DNA from: Acetomicrobium thermoterrenum DSM 13490
GTDB taxonomy: Bacteria; Synergistota; Synergistia; Synergistales; Acetomicrobiaceae
Length of the DNA: 64,000 bases
Assembly: GCF_900107215.1 (NCBI RefSeq)
Contig: NZ_FNPD01000005.1
Coordinates: 1-64,000, forward strand
Reading direction: 5' to 3'
Below, one piece after another: positions 943 to 15,568 of this stretch. Below the pieces are notes generated by a model. It saw only the letters and a list, made by a program, of their open reading frames with translations, was not told where the DNA came from and did not search any database. The first letter of the stretch is position 1. Every line of letters starts with the position of its first letter. The position numbers were made by a program, and so were the translations under genes.

Positions 943-1971
943 TTATAGGTTAAGCACCTTTACTTCGTCCTTTGGAATAACAAGATCTACCGATGTATCG
1001 TAATTTAAACTGCAGTCCAGGCTGTTATTTAAGACGTCTACGTCTAGAATGCAATCTTTAGATCTAACCCGAAAGCGCAGTATATTCCCTTTAAGAAAAA
1101 CGCCGACGACTTTACCCTTAATTCGCCAGGAGCCATTATGGCCTTTTCCGTTTTCGCCATTCAAGGAAAGCTTGATCACCTCCGGCCTTATAGCTAAGCT
1201 CTTGCCGGAGAAAAGGGGTTCTCCCACGAGCCGTTCAAATTCCTCCCCTTTAAGGACGTTGAAGTTTCCTATGAACCTCGCCACGAACTCGCTTGCGGGC
1301 TGGCTGTATATTTCCAAAGGTTTGCCGGATTGCGCTACCCTGCCTTCGTTTATCACGAATATCCTGTCTGAAATCGTCAAAGCCTCTTCCTGGTCATGGG
1401 TGACGAAGATCATGGTCATACCGGACTTTTTCTGTATATTTTTAAGCTCCATCTGAAGCATCTTTCTTATCTTGGCGTCCAGTGCGTTGAAGGGCTCGTC
1501 AAGAAGCAGCACGTCAGGCTCCACGATCATTGACCTAGCGAGGGCTACCCTCTGTTGCTGGCCGCCGGAAAGCTCTCTTGGATAAGATTTTTCTTTGCCG
1601 GACAACCCCACGAGGTTGACCATATCCCTAACTCTTGCTGCAATATAGTTGCCTTTAAGGCCCTGCATTTTTAGCCCAAATGCTACATTTTCGTAGACGG
1701 TCATGTTCGGAAAAAGAGCGTAGGACTGAAATACCATTCCCACTCCTCTCTTTCTCGGTGCAAGGTTGGTGATATCCCTGTCGTTTAAAAGTATGCGACC
1801 GCCATCGACCTCATTTAACCCGGCGATGCAGCGAAGCAACGTGCTCTTTCCGCAGCCCGAAGGCCCCAGCAGTGTTACCAGCTCTCCTCTTTCGACGGCG
1901 AGGCTTATTTCATTCAATACCACCGTACCATCGAACTTCTTTGTAACTTTATCTATAATGAGGTAACTCAT
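943..1971 (-). CDS. ABC transporter ATP-binding protein (spermidine/iron/phosphonate class)
   Basis: A 342-residue importer ATPase. Walker A GPSGCGKST (about residues 37-45), Q-loop VFQSYALFP, signature LSGGQQQR, Walker B VLLLDEPFNALD and the switch His in VTHDQEEA are all present, followed by a C-terminal region of about 100 residues that looks like the TOBE domain of PotA/FbpC/PhnT-type subunits. It is the last gene of a minus-strand operon (binding protein, hydrolase, two permeases, ATPase) and overlaps the upstream permease gene by about 20 bases, which suggests translational coupling. It would energise uptake by the two permeases. A deleted relic of a closely related gene lies at 7731-7925. 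Confidence 0.9.
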   Translation of the reverse strand: MSYLIIDKVTKKFDGTVVLNEISLAVERGELVTLLGPSGCGKSTLLRCIAGLNEVDGGRILLNDRDITNLAPRKRGVGMVFQSYALFPNMTVYENVAFGLKMQGLKGNYIAARVRDMVNLVGLSGKEKSYPRELSGGQQQRVALARSMIVEPDVLLLDEPFNALDAKIRKMLQMELKNIQKKSGMTMIFVTHDQEEALTISDRIFVINEGRVAQSGKPLEIYSQPASEFVARFIGNFNVLKGEEFERLVGEPLFSGKSLAIRPEVIKLSLNGENGKGHNGSWRIKGKVVGVFLKGNILRFRVRSKDCILDVDVLNNSLDCSLNYDTSVDLVIPKDEVKVLNL

Positions 1972-2785
1972 ATTTCTTCCCCCTTAAGTTATCAAAATTG
2001 CCGTTTTTAAAGTTTTGGCCCAGCTTTAACGCGATCCATGAAAGGCAGAAGACGAAAAGGTAGTAACTTATCACGACGGCACTGGACAAATGGCCGCTTT
2101 CTCTCATTCGCCTCATTAGGTATATCTGAACGGTTTCGTAGTATCCGCCTACCAAGAGGTTTGTCAAAACGAACTCGCCGAAAAGCACGGAGAAAGAAAG
2201 CAGGGCTGATACCATAACCCCGGGAAGTATGTTCGGCAGTACAACTTTAAAGAAGGCTTTAGGCTTGGAAGCACCCAAAAGCTCGGCCGCGCTGACGAGT
2301 TGAGGAAGGTCTACCGTCCTCATGCTGTTTCGCGTTCCTTGATATGTATAGGGAAGTATGACGACGAAGTAGGCTCCTATCAATAACCAAACTGTCCCGG
2401 AAATTGCCAAAGGTCCGGAGGAATAGACCTTGATCAGCCCTATGGCACCAATCACTCCAGGTATGGCGTAGGGAAGCATGGCGAAAGCCTGAAGAAACCG
2501 CTCTAACTTTGGAATATACAGAGAGACGATGAAAAGCGATACCACCATCACGGCAATGTTTAAACCTACCGCGACGGAGCAGGCAAAAAGCGTTCGCCCC
2601 AAAGCCGCTACGAAACGTACATCCTGGAAAAGCTTCACATACCAAGAGAGAGTCAACCCCTTGGGCAGGACAGTATCGTACCAGTCGGTGGCAATCGAAT
2701 ATAGGAAGGTTGCTATCAAAGGCATGAACAAATAAAGAAACATCAAAGTTATGACGAAGCGATGAAGTGCCCTCTTTTCCTTCAC
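1949..2785 (-). CDS. ABC transporter permease (second inner-membrane subunit)
   Basis: A 278-residue hydrophobic protein with about six membrane segments and the EAA-type cytoplasmic loop SAAELLGASKPKAFFKVVLPNILPG that docks on the ATPase. It belongs to the binding-protein-dependent transport family (PotC/PhnV-like). It overlaps the preceding permease by four bases and the following ATPase gene by about 20 bases. With the 2782-3645 product it would form a heterodimeric channel. The substrate cannot be read from the permease itself; see the hydrolase at 3642-4466. Confidence 0.88.
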   Translation of the reverse strand: MKEKRALHRFVITLMFLYLFMPLIATFLYSIATDWYDTVLPKGLTLSWYVKLFQDVRFVAALGRTLFACSVAVGLNIAVMVVSLFIVSLYIPKLERFLQAFAMLPYAIPGVIGAIGLIKVYSSGPLAISGTVWLLIGAYFVVILPYTYQGTRNSMRTVDLPQLVSAAELLGASKPKAFFKVVLPNILPGVMVSALLSFSVLFGEFVLTNLLVGGYYETVQIYLMRRMRESGHLSSAVVISYYLFVFCLSWIALKLGQNFKNGNFDNLRGKKYELPHYR

Positions 2786-3645
2786 TTTAAATCCCTCCTG
2801 ATCCGCCTCATCATGTATTCGTTTGTAAGCATGGCCGCGATGAGGCTTAAGGCGAGAAGCATGGCCAGCGCGCTTGCAAGATGAGGGCGTGCGTACACAT
2901 CTCCCGATATCAGCGCGCCAATCCTGACGGAAAGGAGGTTGTAATTGCTTCCGACCAAGGCGTAGGCCGTGGCATAGGCTCCCATGGCGTTGGCAAAGAG
3001 AATGCTAAAAGTCCCGACGAGCCCCGGCATAATGACGGGAAGGCCAACCTGAAGCCAGAACTGCATATCTGAAGCCCCAAGCAGATGTGCAGCCTCCCGC
3101 CACTGCTCTTTTATCTCAAAGTAGATCGGATAAAGCAAAAGTATGGCCAAGGGCAGCTGAAAATAAACGTAAACCAGGACCAAGCCACTCCAGCTGTAAA
3201 GATTGAATTCTGAAAATATATCCAACCCCCATCTTTGGAATAGGATCGTAAAAAGACCACTGTTGCCGAGCATGATTATGTAGGCAAAGGCAAGGGGGAC
3301 GCCTGCGAAATTTGCCGTGAGGTTTACGTAAGTTAATACCGCCTCCTGGGATTTCGGCTTAAGACGCGTTATGAAATAAGCGACGAAGGCTGCCATGACT
3401 ATTGCAATGCAACTTGAAAGAAGCGATATGAGCAGGCTGTTTTTGATGGCGACCAGATAGTATGGATTTTTTAAAGCGGTGATATATTGTCCCAAGGTCC
3501 AAACATTACTGTCGTCCGTCCTAAAGCTGTCAAGGAGCATCCCCATAATTGGCAGCAGCTCGAATCCGAAGATCATTACTGCCAATGGAAAAAGCGCGCC
3601 TGCAAGCCAGAGGTTTTTGCTGATATGCGCCCACTTTGCCCTCAC
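2782..3645 (-). CDS. ABC transporter permease (first inner-membrane subunit)
   Basis: A 287-residue integral membrane protein with about six helices and a conserved EAA loop (EAAHLLGASDMQFWLQVGLP). It is of PotB/PhnU type, and pairs with the neighbouring permease. Start and stop codons overlap both neighbours by four bases (ATGA-type junctions), which indicates a tightly coupled operon. Family assignment is firm at the level of MetI-like permease; the substrate is inferred only from context. Confidence 0.88.
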   Translation of the reverse strand: MRAKWAHISKNLWLAGALFPLAVMIFGFELLPIMGMLLDSFRTDDSNVWTLGQYITALKNPYYLVAIKNSLLISLLSSCIAIVMAAFVAYFITRLKPKSQEAVLTYVNLTANFAGVPLAFAYIIMLGNSGLFTILFQRWGLDIFSEFNLYSWSGLVLVYVYFQLPLAILLLYPIYFEIKEQWREAAHLLGASDMQFWLQVGLPVIMPGLVGTFSILFANAMGAYATAYALVGSNYNLLSVRIGALISGDVYARPHLASALAMLLALSLIAAMLTNEYMMRRIRRDLK

Positions 3646-4466
3646 GATAATCCCCCCGAGGATGCCGGCGATGTAATAGAGTTCATTGCCTCAGACGGAT
3701 TTATCTCAAGCAGCCTACAGATTAAGGGCGCTATCCCAAGCTGCGAAGGAGGTTCGTAGCATACCGACGTGAATCGGTCTCCAACGAGAAACAGAGGCAC
3801 GTCCCGCTCCTCGCTGCTTTCTCCTCCGTGGTTTCCGAAGTCGTCCATCCCGTGATCGGCCGTCACGATCACCTGATAGCAGTCGTCCAGCCACAGGGGG
3901 ATGTACTTACTTAAAAGCCCATCCATTTCTGACGTCTTTTTGGCATACTCTCTTGATGAACCTCCGTAGAGATGACCGAAGTAATCGACCCCCATGGGAT
4001 GTATCAGCAAAAAGTCGGGCTTATGCTTTCTTCGAAGTATTTCACCATCGACAAAGAGGTGAGAATCGGGATAGTCGTCCTCGAAGTAGAACCTCCCGAA
4101 TTGAATTGGCATATCCTCCTTCTCCTGTTCGCGGTGAAGCGGCAGATCGAAGGGATAGCAGTTGTAAAGCTCGCTGATCCAGTAATAAGCAGCTGCTGCG
4201 TTGATGAACCCTTTTTCCCTGGTCAGATGAAATAGGCTTTTTTGACTCGACCTTCCTTTAAATTCGTTAGAGGTCACGCCGCTTATATAGGGAGGAATCC
4301 CCGTAAGCAGCGTCTCGTATAAGGGTTTGGAAAGGCTTGGCAGTTCAGCCTTTAGGGCAAATCTGGCTGCCAAGCCTTCCCCGGTCAAACGGACCATATA
4401 GCGCATTTCCTTAAAGGCCACATCGCACCTGAGTCCGTCTATTATTACGAGAATTACCTTATTCAT
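3642..4466 (-). CDS. Alkaline-phosphatase-superfamily hydrolase (nucleotide pyrophosphatase/phosphodiesterase-like)
   Basis: A 274-residue hydrolase with the metal-binding pattern of the alkaline phosphatase superfamily: the N-terminal DGLRCD metal aspartate, a Ser/Thr nucleophile region around LPSLSKPLYETLLTG, VDYFGHLYG, TADHGMDD and NHGG. No signal peptide is evident, so it probably acts in the cytoplasm on an imported compound. Its position inside an ABC importer operon, between the binding protein and the permeases, suggests that the transported solute is a phosphoester or phosphonate. Phosphonoacetate hydrolase and type I phosphodiesterases belong to this superfamily. The exact substrate is unknown. 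Confidence 0.8.
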   Translation of the reverse strand: MNKVILVIIDGLRCDVAFKEMRYMVRLTGEGLAARFALKAELPSLSKPLYETLLTGIPPYISGVTSNEFKGRSSQKSLFHLTREKGFINAAAAYYWISELYNCYPFDLPLHREQEKEDMPIQFGRFYFEDDYPDSHLFVDGEILRRKHKPDFLLIHPMGVDYFGHLYGGSSREYAKKTSEMDGLLSKYIPLWLDDCYQVIVTADHGMDDFGNHGGESSEERDVPLFLVGDRFTSVCYEPPSQLGIAPLICRLLEINPSEAMNSITSPASSGGLS

Positions 4467-4471
4467 GGCAA

Positions 4472-5557
4472 CTATCTAAGATACACCAACACTTGTTCCT
4501 GCCAGATTTGAGGCAGCATTTTTGCAGTGTTTTCCCAGGCCTTGAAGTCTTTAATCGGCCTTGCATTTGCGTATTGTTCCATAGGAATCATCTTTTTTGC
4601 CACTTCCTCGGGAAGTTTTACGCTGCTTCTTATCGGACGTGCATAACCCTTTGCAAGGTTGATCTGCCCGGCATCGCTTAAGATGTATTCCCTGGTGAGC
4701 ATGGCTGCATGAGGATGGGGGGCGTATTTGTTGATTATAGTGGCGTAACCGCTCACTACGCTTCCTTCTTTGGGGATGCTGACCTCAAACCGATCGGGGT
4801 CTATTTGGTCCCGATAACCCAAGGCGTTGAAATCCCACAGAAATCCCACGGGTATCTCTCCCTTTTCGAAATTGGCCGGCAATACATCGGTCAGCAATAA
4901 CCGTCCCTGTTTGGCAAGCGCCGCAAAAAAGTCTATTGCAGGCTTAATATTGCTCTCGTCTCCGCCAAGAGCAATCGCTGTGGCAAGCACCGCCATCTGA
5001 GCCTGGGCAGCCTTAGTCACATCCCCGATGGCGACTTTGTAATCTCCATTTTTAATGTCCTCGAAAGACCTGGGCAGATTTTTAACCTGGGACTTGTCCG
5101 TTATAACGGCCATAGTGCCGAGATATCCTACTATCCAGTGCCCTTCTTTGTCTTTGGCCCAATCTGGTATTTCATCCCAGTAGGACGTCTTAAAGGGCTG
5201 TGTAACTTTCCGTTCGACTGCAACCGGCCCAAAGGCCATGCCCACGTCTCCTATGTCAGCTGTAGGGTTATTCTTTTCCGCCTCGAACTTGGCTATTTCC
5301 TCAGCGCTCGACATATCGGTGTCAATATGCTTCAGGCCGTATTTGACCTCCAGATCGCGCCACGTATCCTTCCAGTTAGCCCAAGCATCGGGCATGCCAA
5401 CGCTTACGATCATGCCCTCCTGCCTTGCGCGCTCCTCTATTTCCTTCAGGCTAAGTTGCTGAGCATTTGAAGGTGTGGCAGGCATAACAAGAATGGCAAA
5501 TATCATACAAACAATCATACTTAGTAAAATCCTTCTTGCCCTAACTGCTTTTTTCAC
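4472..5557 (-). CDS. ABC transporter substrate-binding protein
   Basis: Read from a GTG at 5557 with GGGGAGG just upstream, the product is 361 residues with a basic N-terminus and a hydrophobic signal segment ending near PSNAQQ. The mature part resembles the iron/spermidine/2-aminoethylphosphonate class 1 binding proteins (extracellular solute-binding family), with motifs such as NPTADIGDVGMAFG and VGFLWDFNALGYRD. The open frame extends 29 codons further upstream, but that extension is not signal-like. First gene of the minus-strand ABC operon; its stop lies five bases before the hydrolase start. It should capture the solute outside the membrane; its ligand is not determinable by eye. Confidence 0.85.
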   Translation of the reverse strand: MKKAVRARRILLSMIVCMIFAILVMPATPSNAQQLSLKEIEERARQEGMIVSVGMPDAWANWKDTWRDLEVKYGLKHIDTDMSSAEEIAKFEAEKNNPTADIGDVGMAFGPVAVERKVTQPFKTSYWDEIPDWAKDKEGHWIVGYLGTMAVITDKSQVKNLPRSFEDIKNGDYKVAIGDVTKAAQAQMAVLATAIALGGDESNIKPAIDFFAALAKQGRLLLTDVLPANFEKGEIPVGFLWDFNALGYRDQIDPDRFEVSIPKEGSVVSGYATIINKYAPHPHAAMLTREYILSDAGQINLAKGYARPIRSSVKLPEEVAKKMIPMEQYANARPIKDFKAWENTAKMLPQIWQEQVLVYLR

Positions 5558-5830
5558 CGAACCTACCTCCCCTGAAACCAAATTTGTGTTTCCGAAATAA
5601 GTATAAGATGCGCATGTTACGGCACTGTTTGTATTTGGTAACAAGGATGTAACTGTTTATCTTCGCAACGGCTGGTCTATGAATGCAAAGAATACTTTTA
5701 ACATAAAGTATGGAATGCAACTTGAAGCGATTGTTGAAAGCATGTAATACTCCTCTATGATCGCCATATGCTATAATATTTATATATTCCTATGACAATA
5801 CAATATATTAAAAAAAAGGGGGGATATCAT
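5558..5830. other. Divergent intergenic region
   Basis: This AT-rich stretch separates the minus-strand ABC operon from the plus-strand repeat protein and should hold both promoters. A TATACT sits near 5600 on the minus strand, but no convincing -35 partner is seen. The ribosome-binding site GGGGGG precedes ATG 5831. Nothing else recognised. Confidence 0.4.
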
Positions 5831-7639
5831 ATGAAATTCGGGATGAAGGCAGCCTATTTGCTTTTTGCAGCCTTTGTTGTTGTGCTGTTTGCAAATCCTG
5901 CCATCGCTGCCATGGGGGAAATACAAAGCTTTACCTTTAAGGGCACCGAAACGGACCTTCTTGGGATGAAAGAGACCCTTAAACCGGACGGCAAACCAGA
6001 TGCTCATTTCGTCGTTTCCCTCAGAGGTGTTGGAGCTATCACGGGCGTAGAACTTAAGGCTCTGGGAACGGATAGGGCATGGGACACGATTCCCGGCAAC
6101 GAAAAATGGGGAATGATCGTACGAGACGGCAACGGAGAGGATGTAACTACTGCCTCAGGATCATTTTCGACCAAACCTTTTTTCGCCTTTCTTACCCTTC
6201 ATCTTTACGTTGCCGATGATGGCACTGCCTTTTCGGAAAAACGTGAATACGAAGTGTCTGTGTCGTTCATGGACGGCAGTGCTGTGACTGCTAAGACAAC
6301 CGTTCCGGGAATGCCCGATATCTTTAAGCCTGAAGAGGTTGAAAAGGTCGAATTGCCCGAGTCCGAAGAACTATCGGCGGTCTTGTTGGGGATTGGAGAC
6401 AAAGACGTCGTGGGTAAATCGGAGAAGATCAATCGAGACGGCGTAAGGGACGCTCACTTTAAGACCCGATTCAACACCGTATCCGTAGTTGAAGAGATTT
6501 CGATACGAAACGTGGACGGCACATCTTCGGCGTGGGATACCGTCCCCGGCAACGGAACATGGGCCATAGCGGTCTATACCGACGGCAAGTTGCGAAACAG
6601 GGAGGATGGAAGCGTAAAATTTGCCGTAGAGGGCGATACGACGTTAGACCTTTGGGTCGCTGACAACGGCTCCATTGCAGCAGGCGCTACGCGATATGAA
6701 GTGATCGTTAAGTTCAATGACGGCACGGTCTTGCGCAAGGTAGCCGAACGTCAGGAGGTTGCAAAAACGGCCGTCGACAAAGGCATCCTCTCTGCAGTTT
6801 TGATTGAGCCTACAAGAGGAGATCTCACCTCCAGAAGCGAGGCTTTGAGGGGAGACGGAAAACCCGACTGGAAGATCGCCCTTGAAATGATAGCCGAGGG
6901 AAGGATCATCAACTTCATAGTTCGTGGAAATGACGGAGCCTCGGAGTGGGATACGATATCAGGAAATGGAAAATGGCTGGTAGCGGTGACGGACTCTTTG
7001 GGAAACGTCTTAAACGAAAGCAACGGCTCAATTTCTTTGAATGTTTCCGGAAAAAAGGAATTTGATCTATGGCTAACGGATAATGGAACTATTACGGAAG
7101 GCGACGTTAAATACAAAGTCCTAGTGGTCATGAGCGACGGAAGCATCTTGGAAAAGGATGTAGTGCGCGCCAAAGAAGGCAAAGAGGTTTCAAAGGCCGG
7201 GATGCCTTCGGACAGAGCTCAAGTTTCTGACAAAATTCGCGCTACTTATCGCGGCAAGGGGCCTATGAACTACCTAAAGAAGGCAGAGGTTTCCTCTCTT
7301 CTTGCCTCGGCGGACGCGAATCCCGACGCTCACGTGCTACTCAAGCTCATTAATATTAAAGGAACCATAGAAAGCATTACCGTTAAGGCAAAAGATGGCA
7401 AAAGCGGAACATGGGACACCATTCCGGGAAACGGCGTATGGAATATAGTAGTCACCCGAGCGGCGTCAGGGGGAATACTGTCTAACACGGACGGGTCTTT
7501 CAATATGGAGGTCGAAGGAGACACGCAACTGCACCTCTGGCTGGCTGACAACGGTAATTTCGGCGTCGCACCGGAAAAGTTTGAGGTTTATGTAGCCTTT
7601 GAAGACGGGCGCTTGCTGAAGAATACGATAAGAAAATGA
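5831..7639 (+). CDS. Exported protein of four tandem repeat domains, function unknown
   Basis: From ATG 5831 (strong G-rich ribosome-binding site) the product is 602 residues with a classical signal peptide ending near NPAIAAMG. The rest consists of four repeats of about 140-155 residues. Each has a DGxxDAHF-like segment, a WDTIPGN/WDTVPGN motif (about residues 83, 233, 371 and 526), a Gly/Asp-rich turn, an LWVADNG/LWLADNG motif and a closing (V/I)xFxDGxxL strand. The pattern suggests repeated beta-sandwich modules acting at the cell surface or periplasm. I recognise no family. An in-frame upstream ATG at 5792 would spoil the signal peptide. It is a single-gene unit with a terminator at about 7700. 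Confidence 0.85.
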   Translation: MKFGMKAAYLLFAAFVVVLFANPAIAAMGEIQSFTFKGTETDLLGMKETLKPDGKPDAHFVVSLRGVGAITGVELKALGTDRAWDTIPGNEKWGMIVRDGNGEDVTTASGSFSTKPFFAFLTLHLYVADDGTAFSEKREYEVSVSFMDGSAVTAKTTVPGMPDIFKPEEVEKVELPESEELSAVLLGIGDKDVVGKSEKINRDGVRDAHFKTRFNTVSVVEEISIRNVDGTSSAWDTVPGNGTWAIAVYTDGKLRNREDGSVKFAVEGDTTLDLWVADNGSIAAGATRYEVIVKFNDGTVLRKVAERQEVAKTAVDKGILSAVLIEPTRGDLTSRSEALRGDGKPDWKIALEMIAEGRIINFIVRGNDGASEWDTISGNGKWLVAVTDSLGNVLNESNGSISLNVSGKKEFDLWLTDNGTITEGDVKYKVLVVMSDGSILEKDVVRAKEGKEVSKAGMPSDRAQVSDKIRATYRGKGPMNYLKKAEVSSLLASADANPDAHVLLKLINIKGTIESITVKAKDGKSGTWDTIPGNGVWNIVVTRAASGGILSNTDGSFNMEVEGDTQLHLWLADNGNFGVAPEKFEVYVAFEDGRLLKNTIRK

Positions 7640-8408: not shown

Positions 8409-9431
8409 ATGAGTTTATCGAAAAAAACATTGTATTTGATATTGGGGTTAGTTTTTGTTTTTACTGTCGCAGCAGCAGGAGCCGAGAAATGTTTTGCTCG
8501 AAACGGCAACGGAAAAATAACCTTTGCCGATTTCAGTTGGGAGAGCGTTCAAGTACACAATAGGATAGCCGGTTATCTGATTAGACATGGTTGGGGTCGT
8601 GAAGTCGAATACATGCTTGTCGAGGAAGTGCCAGGCTTTATGGGACTGGAGAGGGGCGATATTCAGATAGCAATGGAGGCCTGGGTTGACAACGCAGCTT
8701 CCTACTGGGAAGAGGCCAAAAAACGCGGGATGATCATAAGCCTTGGAAAGAACTACCCAGACGCGCCTCAAGGGTGGTATGTTCCAACTTACATCATCGA
8801 AGGAGATGAAGAGAGGGGCATCAAGCCCATGGCTTCGGATCTCAAATCCGTCTCAGATCTGCCCAAGTATTGGGAGCTTTTCAAAGATCCCGAGCTCAAA
8901 ACAAAGGGACGCTTCAACAACGGCCCTTCGGGTTGGATAATAAGCGTCATAAATGAAAAACGCCTCAAAGCCTACGGACTGGATAAAACCTATCGAAACT
9001 TCTATACCGGCTCTGCAGCAGCCCTGGCTTCGGCTATTGCCGGAGCTTATGAACGAGGAAACCCTGTTCTGGCTTACTACTGGGAGCCTACCCCCCTTCT
9101 TGGAATGTACGACATGACGAGGCTCGAAGAACCGCCCTACGATGAAAAAGTATGGAACGATACAGGAGCATGCGAAATGCCCAAGTGCAGGGTGTTGAAA
9201 GTTGCCAATCGCGATTTTCTCGAAGAAAATCCCGAGATAGAGGAGATGCTCAAACGCTACAGAACTTCTCTGGAACTTACCAACGAAGTGCTGGCATATA
9301 TGAAGAAAAACGCAGTCACTCCCAAAGATGCTGCCGAATGGTTTTTAAAAACCCATCCGAAACTGTGGAGATCCTGGATAGCAAATCCAAAGGTCCAAGA
9401 AAAAATCGCCAGATCTCTCGAGCAAATTTAA
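8409..9431 (+). CDS. Glycine betaine/carnitine/choline-type substrate-binding protein (OpuAC family)
   Basis: Read from ATG 8409 (AGGGG upstream), 340 residues. A hydrophobic signal segment is followed by a mature domain of the OpuAC/ProX type, with FADFSWESVQVHNRIAG, MEAWVDN, PQGWYVPTYIIEGDEERG and LAYYWEPTP. These Trp/Tyr-rich segments are where this family builds its aromatic cage for quaternary ammonium groups. It is a close paralogue of the 11454-12467 product. No ABC permease or ATPase gene is adjacent, so the partner must be encoded elsewhere. The acyltransferase gene follows after 16 bases, probably co-transcribed. Confidence 0.88.
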   Translation: MSLSKKTLYLILGLVFVFTVAAAGAEKCFARNGNGKITFADFSWESVQVHNRIAGYLIRHGWGREVEYMLVEEVPGFMGLERGDIQIAMEAWVDNAASYWEEAKKRGMIISLGKNYPDAPQGWYVPTYIIEGDEERGIKPMASDLKSVSDLPKYWELFKDPELKTKGRFNNGPSGWIISVINEKRLKAYGLDKTYRNFYTGSAAALASAIAGAYERGNPVLAYYWEPTPLLGMYDMTRLEEPPYDEKVWNDTGACEMPKCRVLKVANRDFLEENPEIEEMLKRYRTSLELTNEVLAYMKKNAVTPKDAAEWFLKTHPKLWRSWIANPKVQEKIARSLEQI

Positions 9432-9447
9432 GGGAGGATCGAGGGAA

Positions 9448-11232
9448 TTGATAACTAAATGTGAATCGGTCGTGATAGCACATTCACGGGAAATACCCAT
9501 TTTATCCTTTTCTCCCCTGGAAAGGACTTGCAGTCGGCTCCTCGAATGGGCGCGCCCTCTGCTTTCTGCAGATCTTTACCGCGAAAGCATGCGGGCTGTC
9601 GAGGGTTTTTTGTCGTCCAGCGGAGAGGGACATCTCCTTCAGGGCGAACTTGACAGAATTTATCCTGAGCAAAGGGACGTTTTAAAGTGGATGCCCTACT
9701 GGGAAAATTGGTACCTCTCCAACAGACATCCCCTTCCCGCTAACTGCAATCCCTTCTATGTGCTGGAAATCGAAGGAGAAAAGCTTAAAATCGATAATGT
9801 TGAGCTTTCAGCGATGGCGGTGGAGGCTGCCCTTAAATTTCACCTGAAAATAAAAAAGGGAGACCTAAAACCCGACCGTTGGAATGGCCGCCTTCTTTCA
9901 ATGGAACAATACGACTTAATCTTCGGCGTTACACGCATCCCCGGAAAGGATATGGATCGAAATCTGAAAAGCGATACCGACTATATAGCCGTCCTTTGTA
10001 ACGGCCATATTTTCCTTCAAAAAGTCTTGGAGGGCGAAAATATCGTGCCGAGCGAAGGTCTTGCTCGCAATTTTCGAATCATTATGGAGCAATCCAGGCG
10101 ACCTGCAAGAGTGCCTCTATCGGAGCTTACCTCCTTACCTCGATCGAAGTGGGCCGAAATCCGCGATAAACTTATACAATGCAAAGAGGTCGCAAGAGCT
10201 ATCGAAGCAATAGAAAAAAGCCTTTTTGTGCTCTGCCTAGATGAACCGAGGGAAATGACGCTAGAAGAGCTATCTTTAAGCGTTCTTCTGGGGCCCCCTG
10301 AAAGCAGGTGGTTTGACAAGTCGTTGCAGGTGGTAGCCTTGGGCAAGGGCCGAATAGGCATAAACTTCGAGCACTCCCAGAGGGACGGCACGCCCATGGG
10401 TCGTTTCGTCAAATTCTTAAATGAAGAGATTGCGACCTTAAGGCTCAAAACAGGGGCCGCTCCTTCCCCGATAGAAGTGGACATACCGGAAAGGGATTAT
10501 GTCAAAGATATATCGTTGAAAGCTCAAAAAGAAGCAGAAAAAGCATTTTCTAAGTTGAAATTGAGCGTAATTAACTTCAAAGATTTCGGGAAGGAAGAAA
10601 TTAAAAGGCTTAAGTTGAGTCCCGACGGCTTTGTCCAAACTGCTCTTTTTCTTTCGCAAAAAAGAGCCTGGGGGCATGTAAAAACTACTTTTGAATCGGT
10701 TATGCTCAGGCAATTCTGGAAAGGACGAACGGAGGGAATGAGGCCATTTAATTCCTGGACTGGGGCTTTCCTTAGGCTTATCGACGATCCTTCTGCAAGC
10801 GACAGAGCGCGCAATGCAGCCATGCTAAAAGCCATAAAAGCTCACAGCTTTCGTGCCAGGCTGTGCATGGACGGCAAAGGCCTGGAGGGTCATCTGGGAC
10901 TTCTTGAGGCTATCGCCGAGGGAAAGGTGGGTAAGAGAGCGTTAGTCGAAAAGCCAAAAATATACGAATGCCCTGCCTGGAAGGTGCTGCAGGATATCGG
11001 GATAACATCATCCACTACCTCGGGCGAAGGGTTGGTTTCTGCAGGCTACGGCCCGGCCCAGGAAGACGGCATTGCCGTAAGGTACATCAAAAGGCCTGAC
11101 TGTTTAGTCTTTTGCGTTACGAGCCTCGATGATTTTGATGATTCTAGAAGGCGCTTCATCGAAAAACTTCCGAAGGCATTGAAGGATATGCGCCGCTGTG
11201 CTGGCCTGTCGACGGAACGTAAGTTTCTTTGA
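9448..11232 (+). CDS. Choline/carnitine O-acyltransferase family protein
   Basis: A 594-residue protein with hallmarks of the eukaryotic-type carnitine/choline acyltransferase fold. RIPGKDMD lies in the N-terminal half, and the DKSLQVVALGKGRIGINFEH region carries the catalytic His (about residue 309) in NFEHSQRDG. Also present are QKRAWGHVKTTFESV, GRTEGMRPF (about 426-434), a Ser/Thr-rich SSTTSGEG segment in the place of the family STS motif, and GYGPAQEDGIAVRY near the C-terminus. The family transfers acyl groups between CoA and carnitine or choline. TTG start with GGGAGG ten bases upstream. It sits between two paralogous betaine/carnitine-binding proteins, which fits a quaternary-amine substrate. 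There is no signal peptide, so it is cytoplasmic. Substrate preference is not determinable. Confidence 0.85.
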   Translation: MITKCESVVIAHSREIPILSFSPLERTCSRLLEWARPLLSADLYRESMRAVEGFLSSSGEGHLLQGELDRIYPEQRDVLKWMPYWENWYLSNRHPLPANCNPFYVLEIEGEKLKIDNVELSAMAVEAALKFHLKIKKGDLKPDRWNGRLLSMEQYDLIFGVTRIPGKDMDRNLKSDTDYIAVLCNGHIFLQKVLEGENIVPSEGLARNFRIIMEQSRRPARVPLSELTSLPRSKWAEIRDKLIQCKEVARAIEAIEKSLFVLCLDEPREMTLEELSLSVLLGPPESRWFDKSLQVVALGKGRIGINFEHSQRDGTPMGRFVKFLNEEIATLRLKTGAAPSPIEVDIPERDYVKDISLKAQKEAEKAFSKLKLSVINFKDFGKEEIKRLKLSPDGFVQTALFLSQKRAWGHVKTTFESVMLRQFWKGRTEGMRPFNSWTGAFLRLIDDPSASDRARNAAMLKAIKAHSFRARLCMDGKGLEGHLGLLEAIAEGKVGKRALVEKPKIYECPAWKVLQDIGITSSTTSGEGLVSAGYGPAQEDGIAVRYIKRPDCLVFCVTSLDDFDDSRRRFIEKLPKALKDMRRCAGLSTERKFL

Positions 11233-11453
11233 CAAGCACGTAAAAATTTTGGTAATATAAAACTTACTATAGTGCTTGCTTCTGTAATTTTAGCCTTTCG
11301 ATTTCCCAAAGTTCATAAAATTTTCGTAGTGCCCATTTCGCGATGCCCATTACGAGATCGCCGACCGATTTGCTTATATTTTCTTGCAAACCCGATGCAT
11401 TAATCCGAGGCGCTAAATAGTAAATAAAATAATACAAAGGGAGGAATGCGTAA

Positions 11454-12467
11454 ATGAGAAAACTTTTCGCACTTTTTTGCGCTGTTTCAATTGCGGTTTT
11501 TTGTATTGCAGGGTCAGCGCCGGCAAAGGATAAAACGGTTACCTTTGTAGATTTCAGCTGGAGCAGCGTACAGATGCACAACAGAATAGCTGGTTTTGTC
11601 CTGGAACACGGATACGGCTATAAGCCTAACTACATTTTCGCCGAATCCGTGCCAGGACTGACAGGACTGGCACGTGGGGATATCGACGTAGCCATGGAGA
11701 TGTGGGTCGATAACGTCTTAGATTGGTACAATAAAGCTGTAGGAAAGGATAAAAAAGTCATCGACCTTGGTCCTGTTTTTCCTGACTCGCCTCAGGGTTG
11801 GTACGTGCCCACCTTCGTCATCGAAGGCGACGAAGAGAGGGGCATCGAACCTATGGCTCCGGATTTGAGGTCGGTCTACGACCTTCCCAAATACTGGGAA
11901 CTTTTCAAAGACCCGGAAAAACCGAATAAGGGACGCTTCTACAACGCAATCCCGGGGTGGGTGGTTCATGATATTAACTTAAAGAAATTGGAAGCTTACG
12001 GGCTTACCGAAACCTTCGAGCCCTTTGGTCCGGGTTCGCAAACTTCCCTGGCTACGGCAATAGTAACGGCGTACAACAAAGGTCAACCTGTTCTCGCCTA
12101 CTACTGGGAACCCGAATGGATTATGGGAATGTTAAATATGACTCGTCTTGAGGAACCGCCCTACGATCCAAAAAAGTGGAACGATGAGGCGGGCTATGCC
12201 TGCGAATTTCCGGCCGCCCGTGTCCACATCGGCATCAACGCCGATTTTCTCAAGAATAACACGGAGATACTGAGCTTTTTGGCAAATTACGAGACCACTC
12301 TGGAGCAAAACAACGCAGCCTTGGCGTACATGCAGCAGAATAATGCCAACGTCGAAACAACCGCAGTATGGTTTCTCAAGGAATACAAAGACCTATGGAC
12401 GAAATGGATACCCGACGACGAAGTTAAAGAAAAAGTATTAAAGGCTCTGGAAAAAATAAAGATATAA
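11454..12467 (+). CDS. Glycine betaine/carnitine/choline-type substrate-binding protein (OpuAC family), second copy
   Basis: A 337-residue paralogue of the 8409-9431 product, with signal peptide (cleavage near APAKDK) and the same landmarks: FVDFSWSSVQMHNRIAG, AMEMWVDN, PQGWYVPTFVIEGDEERG and LAYYWEPEW. GGAGG precedes ATG 11454. It is separated from the acyltransferase by about 220 AT-rich bases, long enough for its own promoter. A bidirectional terminator follows. The two copies differ throughout (for example AGCEM in place of AGYACEF near the C-terminal part), so they probably differ in ligand preference rather than being a recent duplication. Confidence 0.88.
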   Translation: MRKLFALFCAVSIAVFCIAGSAPAKDKTVTFVDFSWSSVQMHNRIAGFVLEHGYGYKPNYIFAESVPGLTGLARGDIDVAMEMWVDNVLDWYNKAVGKDKKVIDLGPVFPDSPQGWYVPTFVIEGDEERGIEPMAPDLRSVYDLPKYWELFKDPEKPNKGRFYNAIPGWVVHDINLKKLEAYGLTETFEPFGPGSQTSLATAIVTAYNKGQPVLAYYWEPEWIMGMLNMTRLEEPPYDPKKWNDEAGYACEFPAARVHIGINADFLKNNTEILSFLANYETTLEQNNAALAYMQQNNANVETTAVWFLKEYKDLWTKWIPDDEVKEKVLKALEKIKI

Positions 12468-12513: not shown

Positions 12514-13518
12514 TCAGATATTTAAATCTACAAGGCTTACCAATAATTTTACCGCGCCTTCTACGTCGCTTAGGCTCACCGTCTCACTCGGAGAGTGGAC
12601 GTATCTGGTGGGTATTGAAAGCGTTGCGGAAGGGATACCTTCCTTCGTCCTTTGAAGTGCGGCAGCGTTAGTGCCGCCAAAGGTCAAAACTTCCTTTTGG
12701 TAAGGTACGCCTGCCTTTTGTGCTGCCTGCTCCAGCAGTTCGACGACCTTCCTGTGGCTTATGGACATCTTGTCCTTGATCTTTATGGCAGGGCCTTTTC
12801 CCAACGCCATGGCGTGCCTTTTAAGACCTTTGGGATGATCGGCCGAATCGGTGACATCAACGGCTATGCAAATTTGAGGTGAAAAACTGTATGCCGATAC
12901 AAAGGCTCCGACGAGCCCAATTTCCTCCTGAACGGAAAAAGAGCCTATGACCGTGTGTCTGTGGTGTTTTAAATTCTTGAAGACCTCGACTAAAACGGCA
13001 CAGCCCACCCTGTCGTCCATGGATTTCGATGTTAGGTAATTGCCGTTTTTGTAAAAATAGGAATCGTAGACGCCAAACGTACCGATTGAGACCAATTTTT
13101 CGGCTTCACTGCGGTCGCCGGCGCCGATGTCCACGAAGAGGTTGTCAAAGGTGAGGTTAGATAAATTTTTCTTTTGTTCCTCGGGCGTCTCGCCTTCGTA
13201 GTAAACCACTCCCGTGGCTTTGGGGAACTTTATTCTTTGGCCTACATAGTAATAGGGAGAAACTCCGCCAACGGGCTCCACCCTGAGGAATCCCTTGTCG
13301 TCTATATTCGTTACCACAAGCCCGATTTCGTCTATATGGGCGTCTAAAAGCACCTCTTTGTTGTCTCTTCCCCTTTTCCAGACGAGCAAATTGCCCAGGG
13401 AATCGAACTTGTGTCCGTCTATGTGGCCTTCAAGGTGTTTAAGGACGACTTTTTGGACCTCCTCTTCCCTACCGCTTGGGCCGTAACTTTCTGTCAGTTC
13501 TTTGATTAAATCTATCAT
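12514..13518 (-). CDS. M42 family metallopeptidase (third of three)
   Basis: A 334-residue M42 (glutamyl aminopeptidase/PepA-like, FrvX) enzyme with the two-metal site residues DAHIDEIGL, DDRVGCAVL, QEEIGLVGA with the catalytic Glu, DVTDSADH and the C-terminal RYVHSP. M42 enzymes form large tetrahedral cytoplasmic complexes that trim amino acids from peptide N-termini. It overlaps the preceding M42 gene by four bases, and is the last member of a three-gene peptidase run. This fits a peptide-fermenting lifestyle. Confidence 0.9.
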   Translation of the reverse strand: MIDLIKELTESYGPSGREEEVQKVVLKHLEGHIDGHKFDSLGNLLVWKRGRDNKEVLLDAHIDEIGLVVTNIDDKGFLRVEPVGGVSPYYYVGQRIKFPKATGVVYYEGETPEEQKKNLSNLTFDNLFVDIGAGDRSEAEKLVSIGTFGVYDSYFYKNGNYLTSKSMDDRVGCAVLVEVFKNLKHHRHTVIGSFSVQEEIGLVGAFVSAYSFSPQICIAVDVTDSADHPKGLKRHAMALGKGPAIKIKDKMSISHRKVVELLEQAAQKAGVPYQKEVLTFGGTNAAALQRTKEGIPSATLSIPTRYVHSPSETVSLSDVEGAVKLLVSLVDLNI

Positions 13519-14552
13519 CTTGCAAAACCCTCTCCTTCTTCTAAGATTTTGCTGACCAGTTTGACCGTGTTTTCAAAATCTCCCAGGTCGATCATGGACA
13601 AAGGGCTATGAATATATCGAGCAGGAACGGAGATTACCCCAGCCGGTACTCCTCCACCGGTTTTTGCCAAGCGCGCAGCGTCCGTTCCGCCCGCGGTCCT
13701 CCTTTTATATTGATGCTTGATGTCGTATTTTTGGGCGACCTGCAGTATGGATTTGTAGATCTTTTTATTTACCACGTAGCCTCTGTGCATGAAGGTAACG
13801 GCGGGGCCGTCTCCCAGGTGAGTTGCCCACTGATGTTCCGGAAGGCCGGGATCGTCTCCTGCCGTGGTTCCCTCGATCACCAAGGCTATATTGGGTTGAA
13901 GCTGTTCAAATAATACCGCGCTTCCCCGAAGGCCCGTCTCTTCCTGGACCAGGAAGGCAAGGTACAGGTCGTCCTCGTAACGTTGTTCCTGTTCTATTAC
14001 CTCCATCAAGACGGCGCAACCTGCCCTGTCGTCGAAGGCCTTGCCCGTAGCCCTGGAATGTTCTTGCCTGAAATCCGTCGCAAATGAGATGTAGTCTCCT
14101 AATTCTATTTTACGTGAGGCTTCTTCCTTTGACCTTGCACCTATATGTATGCGAAGGTTTTCGAATTTGGGTGATGCCAGCAGCTCGTCTTTCTTTTGAA
14201 GGTGTATGGCCTTGTAACCGATAACTCCGGGCAGCTCTCCTTTGATCCTGACGTGTTTTCCAACGACGACCCGGGGATCGACGCCCCCTACGGGGGCAAA
14301 GGACAGCGTTCCGTCATCCTCAATGTTTGTCACCATGAAGCCGACCTCGTCCATGTGGGCAGCCAGGACGAACTTTCTGTTTGACCTGGTCCCCTTCTTG
14401 AAGGCGATCAAGTTGCCCATGACGTCGACTTTTAAGCTGTCCACCTTGTCTTTAATCTTTTCTTCTATAAACTTTCTGATGCGTCCTTCATCTCCAGAGA
14501 CGCCGTCAAGTTCGGATAATTCCTTTAAGTACAACGCCTTCACCCCTTTCAT
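13515..14552 (-). CDS. M42 family metallopeptidase (second of three)
   Basis: 345 residues, M42 fold. Metal ligands and catalytic Glu are visible in AAHMDEVGFMV, FDDRAGCAVL, QEETGLRGSA, EGTTAGD and RYIHSP. It is clearly divergent from both neighbours, so the three are old paralogues, probably with different residue preferences. Start and stop codons overlap or touch both neighbours (13515-13518, 14552), implying one transcript and coupled translation. Mixed assembly of the three products into one particle is possible but unproven. Confidence 0.9.
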   Translation of the reverse strand: MKGVKALYLKELSELDGVSGDEGRIRKFIEEKIKDKVDSLKVDVMGNLIAFKKGTRSNRKFVLAAHMDEVGFMVTNIEDDGTLSFAPVGGVDPRVVVGKHVRIKGELPGVIGYKAIHLQKKDELLASPKFENLRIHIGARSKEEASRKIELGDYISFATDFRQEHSRATGKAFDDRAGCAVLMEVIEQEQRYEDDLYLAFLVQEETGLRGSAVLFEQLQPNIALVIEGTTAGDDPGLPEHQWATHLGDGPAVTFMHRGYVVNKKIYKSILQVAQKYDIKHQYKRRTAGGTDAARLAKTGGGVPAGVISVPARYIHSPLSMIDLGDFENTVKLVSKILEEGEGFAR

Positions 14553-15568
14553 TAAAGGTTTACGGTGCTTGCCAATGCCAGCAGGCGTGCCGTTTCTTCC
14601 ACGTCGCTGGGGTCGACCAATTCTACGGGCGTGTGCATGTACATGAGCGGTATGGAGACCAGCGCCGTCTTTATGCCCGACCTCGTAAGCTGTACCTCGT
14701 CCGTGTCGGTATGAGATCTCCCGGGCGTGGGCTCGATCTGCGTCCTTACGCCGTGACGTTTTGCCACATCACATAAGGCCTTGTAAAACTCCCTGTTTAT
14801 GACGGGCCCGACTGCCAATACGGGACCTTCCGAGATCTTAATCGGGGGCATCTGCGGGATACGCTCGTTGCCGTGGGTGACGTCTATCACTATGGCCTCG
14901 TCCAACCCAAGCTCGTACGCGACGGAGACCGCCCCCGGACCTGCGATCTCCTCCTGGCTTGAAAAGATGAAATAAACGTCAGCCCTGTTTTTTATCGTCT
15001 CAAGCTCGCGTGCAGCCAAGATTAGGGCAGCACAGCTTGCTCTGTTGTCCAATGCCTTACCGGAAAGTTTATCGCCTAAAGAGGCACACCTTCCTTCGAT
15101 GACGCAAATGTCTCCTACGCTTACGGCTTCGCCTAAGGGGCCGCAGGATACATCGACGTAAATGTCGTTGTAATCGGGGACCTTATCTTTTTGATCATCT
15201 TTTTGGAGGTGAGGAGGAAGAAAGCCCACAACTCCTGTGACGACACCTTGCTTGGTGAATATCTTTATCCTTTGAGAGATGACTACCTTCGGATCTATGC
15301 CACCGATTGGTTCGACCCTCAAAAAACCTCTTTCTTCAAGCTTTGCGACGACGAACCCTATCTCATCAGCATGGGCAAATATCCCAAGTTTTTTGCCGTT
15401 TTGTCCCTTTTTAGCGGCTATAAGAGCGTTCATCCTGTGCTTTCTTACGGAATCGACGTAGGGTTTGATGTTTTCTTCGATGACCTTCAGGACTTCGTCC
15501 TCATAGCCCGAGGGACTGTCAGCGCTTGAAAGACATTTAAGCAAAGAAACCGTATCCAATGACATCAC
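14552..15568 (-). CDS. M42 family metallopeptidase (first of three)
   Basis: 338 residues with the M42 pattern FAHADEIGFVV, LDNRASCAAL, QEEIAGPGA, DVTHGNE and MYMHTPVEL. All zinc ligands expected for the family appear present. It is the first gene of the peptidase run. Upstream (15569-15777) lies only a hicB relic, so a promoter should be there or in the hexuronate operon. Function: cytoplasmic aminopeptidase. Confidence 0.9.
   Translation of the reverse strand: MMSLDTVSLLKCLSSADSPSGYEDEVLKVIEENIKPYVDSVRKHRMNALIAAKKGQNGKKLGIFAHADEIGFVVAKLEERGFLRVEPIGGIDPKVVISQRIKIFTKQGVVTGVVGFLPPHLQKDDQKDKVPDYNDIYVDVSCGPLGEAVSVGDICVIEGRCASLGDKLSGKALDNRASCAALILAARELETIKNRADVYFIFSSQEEIAGPGAVSVAYELGLDEAIVIDVTHGNERIPQMPPIKISEGPVLAVGPVINREFYKALCDVAKRHGVRTQIEPTPGRSHTDTDEVQLTRSGIKTALVSIPLMYMHTPVELVDPSDVEETARLLALASTVNL

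Follow-up and report, generated by a model that had tools for sequence, protein, structure and literature searches.

Carnitine/choline acyltransferases have, to our knowledge, been studied almost only in eukaryotes. In CrAT, we take Arg518 to be the ligand of the carnitine carboxylate. Swaps between CrAT and ChAT at this place shift specificity. The catalytic histidine of CrAT is His343, and Lys419, Lys423, Asp430 and Glu453 contribute to its CoA site (PMC11852590). In ChAT, Tyr552 is the arene beside the catalytic histidine that contacts the cationic ring of the ligands (PMC13255071). On the uptake side, the DMSP receptor DmpX binds the carboxylate of its ligand through Thr64 and Ala153 and holds the ligand in a cage of four Trp residues (PMC10030565). 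The locus described here combines relatives of both kinds of protein. In the window, the whole stretch of 64,000 nucleotides that was analysed, we confirmed three open reading frames encoding an OpuAC-family receptor (receptor 1), an acyltransferase homologue (CAT) and a further OpuAC-family protein (receptor 2), which is 53% identical to receptor 1 (Table 1). By eye, receptor 1 carries a Sec-type signal peptide, and CAT starts with a TTG codon preceded by a purine-rich ribosome-binding stretch and has no signal peptide.

Table 1. Coordinates of the receptor and acyltransferase genes and of selected sites within the window
Feature	Position	Strand	Basis or remark
Receptor 1, OpuAC-family substrate-binding protein, 340 aa	8409-9431	+	PF04069, 178 bits; conserved partner of CAT
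Codon of receptor 1 Glu73, which aligns with the carboxylate contact Thr64 of DmpX	8625-8627	+	Alignment; DmpX role from PMC10030565
CAT, choline/carnitine O-acyltransferase family enzyme, 594 aa	9448-11232	+	PF00755, 410 bits; TM 0.86-0.91
Codon of predicted catalytic His309 of CAT (CrAT His343)	10372-10374	+	Alignment
Gly481 codon of CAT, at the place of CrAT Arg518 (presumed carnitine carboxylate ligand)	10888-10890	+	Alignment
Promoter-like site, perhaps a separate promoter of receptor 2, at the CAT stop codon	11229-11258	+	10/12 consensus matches
Receptor 2, OpuAC-family protein, 337 aa	11454-12467	+	PF04069, 160 bits; separate receptor lineage

Two other features of the window lie close by. 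A 615-aa, secreted-looking protein (5792-7639) consists of about four repeats of a ~150-residue unit with the motif WDTIPGNG. It had no match in Pfam or NCBIfam, and among the neighbourhoods read it occurs only in the window and in a genome of the same species. On the minus strand, 12514-15568 holds three tandem paralogous genes for M42-type aminopeptidases (Pfam was run on one), a trio that stays beside the receptor and CAT genes within the genus.

Profile, fold and catalytic residues all agree that CAT is a full-length homologue of the carnitine/choline acyltransferases, as the initial annotation had proposed. The PF00755 match scores far above its cut-off of 22.3 bits and spans profile positions 5-572 of 574, and CAT is the only PF00755 protein in the source genome. 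The motifs on which the proposal was based are all present: NFEHSQRDG, which contains His309, GRTEGMRPF and SSTTSGEG. An AlphaFold2 model built from an 11-sequence alignment (pLDDT 86.9, pTM 0.87) shows the two-domain CoA acyltransferase fold over the whole length of CAT, and neither a missing profile match nor a different fold speaks against the assignment. The model superposes on CrAT from mouse and human, on human ChAT and on solved COT and CPT2 structures, with TM values (by query length) in the range given in Table 1; the next structural matches are condensation-domain enzymes with TM < 0.5. CAT keeps the catalytic and CoA-site residues as His309, Lys382, Lys386, Asp393 and Glu416, and Ser522 is kept too. 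Among solved structures, the best sequence match is ChAT with 171.7 bits versus 165.4 for CrAT, which is a small margin. CAT is a member of the choline/carnitine O-acyltransferase family by profile and fold, and acyl transfer is its predicted activity.

PF00755 is present in 30 of 188 Synergistota genomes. The source genome is that of a heat-loving, anaerobic Acetomicrobium closest to A. hydrogeniformans, whose CAT is 97% identical to the window CAT; near-identical loci come from Acetomicrobium. In the CAT tree, which excludes L091 (its reading is unreliable) and the partial L092 and L093, the window CAT belongs to clade B, a group of 18 rows that are all from Synergistota (SH-aLRT 99); further Synergistota and other bacteria fall outside it. 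Relatives beyond the phylum occur in Desulfovibrio, Planctomycetaceae, Oscillospiraceae, Spirochaetes, Chloroflexales and others. A survey of gene neighbourhoods across Synergistota upheld the link between receptor and enzyme. An intact receptor gene lies directly upstream of CAT on the same strand in 12 genomes from five families (f1, f5, f6, f7 and f10), namely at the window, L042, L043, L059, L062-L068 and L070, with intergenic gaps of -14 to +24 nt. The surroundings of this pair, which we call the cassette, mostly differ from family to family, and its recurrence in 12 genomes is far beyond chance. The cassette receptors form a single group (SH-aLRT 94), within which they branch much as their CATs do. 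In G024, the cassette receptor is truncated and CAT is intact. No such receptor adjoins five of the clade B CATs that carry Gly in place of CrAT Arg518, and three of their genomes (G020, G021 and G023) are also without the importer described below.

It had been noted that no permease or ATPase gene adjoins the receptors, and a shared transporter elsewhere was postulated. The first statement stands for importers of the betaine type; the window does hold an ABC importer at 943-5644 on the minus strand, but it is unrelated and of the SBP_bac_6 type. We discarded it as a partner of the cassette on account of this receptor type, of its location on the opposite strand and of its absence near cassettes outside the genus. 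A matching transporter is encoded elsewhere in the genome. There are five clear PF04069 genes in the source genome, and on contig C4 one OpuAC receptor gene is followed by genes for an ATPase and a permease, which the cassette site itself lacks. Four other Synergistota (G016, G017, G024 and G043; loci L055, L056, L057 and L060) have the order OpuAC-ATPase-permease-CAT, and the ATPases and permeases of these operons share 60-65% and 67-71% identity, respectively, with those encoded on C4. In G039, the same permease lies just upstream of CAT fragments. A C4-type permease is found elsewhere in every cassette genome (64-100% identity). At > 60% identity it occurs in 26 of the 30 CAT-bearing genomes versus 13 of the 158 CAT-less ones (Fisher p 3e-18, a value that is supportive only since the genomes are related). 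Importer and CAT also co-locate in several phyla, as seen from the gene orders in Desulfovibrio (ATPase, permease, CAT, OpuAC) and two Planctomycetaceae (ATPase, permeases, OpuAC, CAT) and from two Oscillospiraceae in which the importer is divergent from CAT. The C4 genes and the fused operons in relatives lend support to the idea of a shared transporter elsewhere, and the proposed coupling of uptake to acyl transfer gains support. We infer that receptor 1 probably uses the C4 importer core.

A different type of importer was seen beside some other CATs. In family f4, receptor-less clade B CATs (L045, L046, L048 and L049) are arranged tail-to-tail with the genes of a polar-amino-acid-type importer, namely one for an ATPase and one that fuses SBP_bac_3 and permease. 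At L051 and L052, a carnitine-type CAT also adjoins an importer of this type.

The initial annotation described CAT as sandwiched between two paralogous receptors. This holds inside the genus, but beyond it the conserved unit is receptor 1 plus CAT, without receptor 2. In the receptor tree, receptor 2 groups with receptors from G183 and G184 that are encoded < 1 kb from C4-type permeases, and it adjoins CAT only within this genus. In the congener G013 (L050 9603-10208), large internal deletions have left only a few fragments of receptor 1 and CAT, and the adjoining receptor 2 is intact. Because receptor 2 is of another lineage, is found by CAT in this genus only and persists where the congener's CAT has decayed, we rejected a single unit of both receptors and CAT. 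Receptor 2 could have its own promoter at the end of CAT, although this site is weak, as such sites are about as numerous in the region as chance would produce.

The substrate pocket of CAT was compared with those of CrAT and ChAT by alignment. At the place of CrAT Arg518 (DRH), CAT has Gly481, and the Arg sought as a sign of carnitine carboxylate binding is missing. This place is occupied by Gly or Ala in 13 of 13 cassette CATs and by Asn in ChAT. Arg is the residue in each of the four operon CATs and, outside the phylum, in nearly every CAT (one has Gln); G109 has a clade B CAT with Arg. At the place of CrAT Thr465, CAT has Thr428 and resembles the carnitine enzymes (Val in ChAT). The Val-Asp-Asn triplet of ChAT is Thr-Glu-Gly in CAT and the Asn of the ChAT DNH motif is Gly, so neither ChAT signature is present. 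CAT Tyr534, which we take to match ChAT Tyr552 by our own assignment of the published numbering to the aligned chain, is Tyr in all clade B CATs. A second Arg close to the catalytic histidine, Arg312 (H+3), belongs to an EHSxRDG motif found in most clade B CATs and absent from three cassette CATs (L059, L062 and L065). At the place of CrAT Met564, clade B has Ala or Gly throughout. The title of the structure 2h3w describes an S554A/M564G mutant with hexanoylcarnitine; read with this, the small size of the acyl-gate residue suggests an opened acyl pocket that may allow chains longer than acetyl, for example branched or medium chains from amino acids.

The receptor pocket was mapped by sequence alignment to DmpX (E 7e-35). 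For receptor 1, AlphaFold gave a model of mediocre quality (pLDDT 71.7), too weak for reading the pocket. The four-Trp cage and a Tyr are conserved in receptors 1 and 2, giving both, in addition to their PF04069 matches, an aromatic cage of the kind that holds a quaternary cation. DmpX Thr64 corresponds to Glu73 in receptor 1 and to Glu or, in L062, Val in the other intact cassette receptors (12 of 12 in total). Its counterpart is Ser in receptor 2, the C4 receptor and the four operon receptors. Glu is also found at this place in an orphan OpuAC receptor (G000:C6:125199-126098) with no importer genes recognised adjoining it.

With the carboxylate contacts gone from both CAT and receptor 1, the likeliest substrate is not carnitine but a quaternary-ammonium alcohol that lacks a carboxylate, with choline as the best candidate. 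Carnitine, one of the ligands suggested initially, fits poorly with an enzyme that has Gly in place of the carnitine-carboxylate Arg and a linked receptor that has Glu at the carboxylate contact. The changes in the two proteins appear to agree in direction, although they lie on single branches of the CAT and receptor trees and amount to few independent events. Against choline we count the carnitine-like Thr428, the five Gly-bearing clade B CATs without receptor, the Arg in G109 and the possibility that Arg312 binds a carboxylate differently.

We see an even chance that the locus is a two-gene uptake-and-acylation cassette, in which a choline-like alcohol would enter through receptor 1 and the shared importer and be reversibly O-acylated by CAT. 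Receptor 1 would capture the quaternary-ammonium compound in the periplasm with its four-Trp/Tyr cage and hand it to the importer core encoded by the C4 ATPase and permease genes. In the cytoplasm, His309 of CAT would act as the general base in a reversible acyl transfer between CoA and the hydroxyl group of the compound. The reaction may run either way: making the ester would free CoA, and using an imported ester would supply acyl-CoA to fermentation. More tentatively, the cassette might be a bacterial system devoted to choline O-acylation, equipped with an import receptor of its own, and a sister branch to the importer operons with carnitine-type CATs. Enzyme and receptor would then have shifted in concert, exchanging a carboxylated quaternary alcohol for one that lacks the carboxylate. 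Two other fates of the ligand were considered and set aside. There is no MttB match in the genome for demethylation, and for choline cleavage of the CutC type the genome has only a below-cut-off glycyl-radical enzyme. This enzyme (G000:C7:52661-55018) scores 515 bits against a CutC model cut-off of 1050.

The retention of Thr428 and the extra Arg of EHSxRDG in most clade B CATs would also be expected of a carnitine system with a rearranged pocket, in which receptor 1 imports carnitine or acylcarnitine and CAT holds the carboxylate in another way, for example through Arg312. The nearest Synergistota relatives, which are carnitine-type CATs in importer operons, point in the same direction. However, the cassette CATs that lack the H+3 Arg and the Glu in receptor 1 where a carboxylate contact is expected weigh against this explanation, which we regard as less likely but as a serious rival. 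It is rather improbable, though also a serious alternative, that the Gly-Gly pocket (Gly430 and Gly481) takes a larger or different amino alcohol imported by receptor 1. Glycerophosphocholine, a hydroxylated betaine and a sulfonium alcohol are examples of such a hydroxylated cation. CAT fits neither the ChAT nor the CrAT signature and the receptor relative DmpX binds a sulfonium compound, but choline suits both sites and is the simplest such ligand, and none of the named compounds is positively supported.

The receptor and CAT could also be neighbours by history, with receptor 1 serving general osmolyte uptake or sensing and CAT acting on an internal substrate. The receptor-less Gly CATs, three of them in importer-less genomes, and the intact CAT beside a truncated receptor in G024 would agree with this. 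We regard it as very improbable in view of the adjacent order in 12 genomes of five families with changing surroundings and of the importer-CAT clusters in other phyla. A choline-like alcohol imported through receptor 1 and acylated by CAT is the explanation that we favour.

Acyltransferases of this family in anaerobic bacteria, tied to importers for quaternary amines, offer a handle on the role of such enzymes in cells that have no mitochondria. CAT and receptor 1 have lost their carboxylate contacts in parallel, which makes a concrete prediction of specificity for two purified proteins. If the prediction is true, the cassette would represent a bacterial, genetically defined route to acylcholines and a natural instance of joint substrate change in an enzyme and its receptor. 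A literature search on bacterial members of the family returned nothing relevant for the phrases used, which is no proof of absence. The family itself is already known; as far as the searched literature shows, the pairing with a receptor and the joint loss of carboxylate contacts are new.

CAT resembles CrAT (1nm8, 1t7q and 2h3p) in its whole fold (TM 0.88-0.91), catalytic histidine, CoA-site Lys, Asp and Glu residues and the Thr at the Thr465 place. It differs in having Gly for Arg518, Phe for Tyr452, Ala for Met564 and Tyr for Phe566, and in being bacterial and coupled to an import receptor. With ChAT (2fy2) it shares a carboxylate place without Arg, the Tyr at the Tyr552 place and the 171.7-bit match, but it is only 24% identical and has Thr-Glu-Gly and Gly instead of the Val-Asp-Asn triplet and the DNH Asn. 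Receptors 1 and 2 share the four-Trp cage and Tyr with DmpX (7yle; PMC10030565), whereas Thr64 of DmpX is replaced by Glu in receptor 1 and by Ser in receptor 2. The Synergistota operons of the order OpuAC-ATPase-permease-CAT have a receptor of the same family and an importer core 60-71% identical to that of C4. They differ from the cassette in that their CAT is of the carnitine type with the DRH Arg, their receptor keeps Ser and their importer genes are part of the operon.
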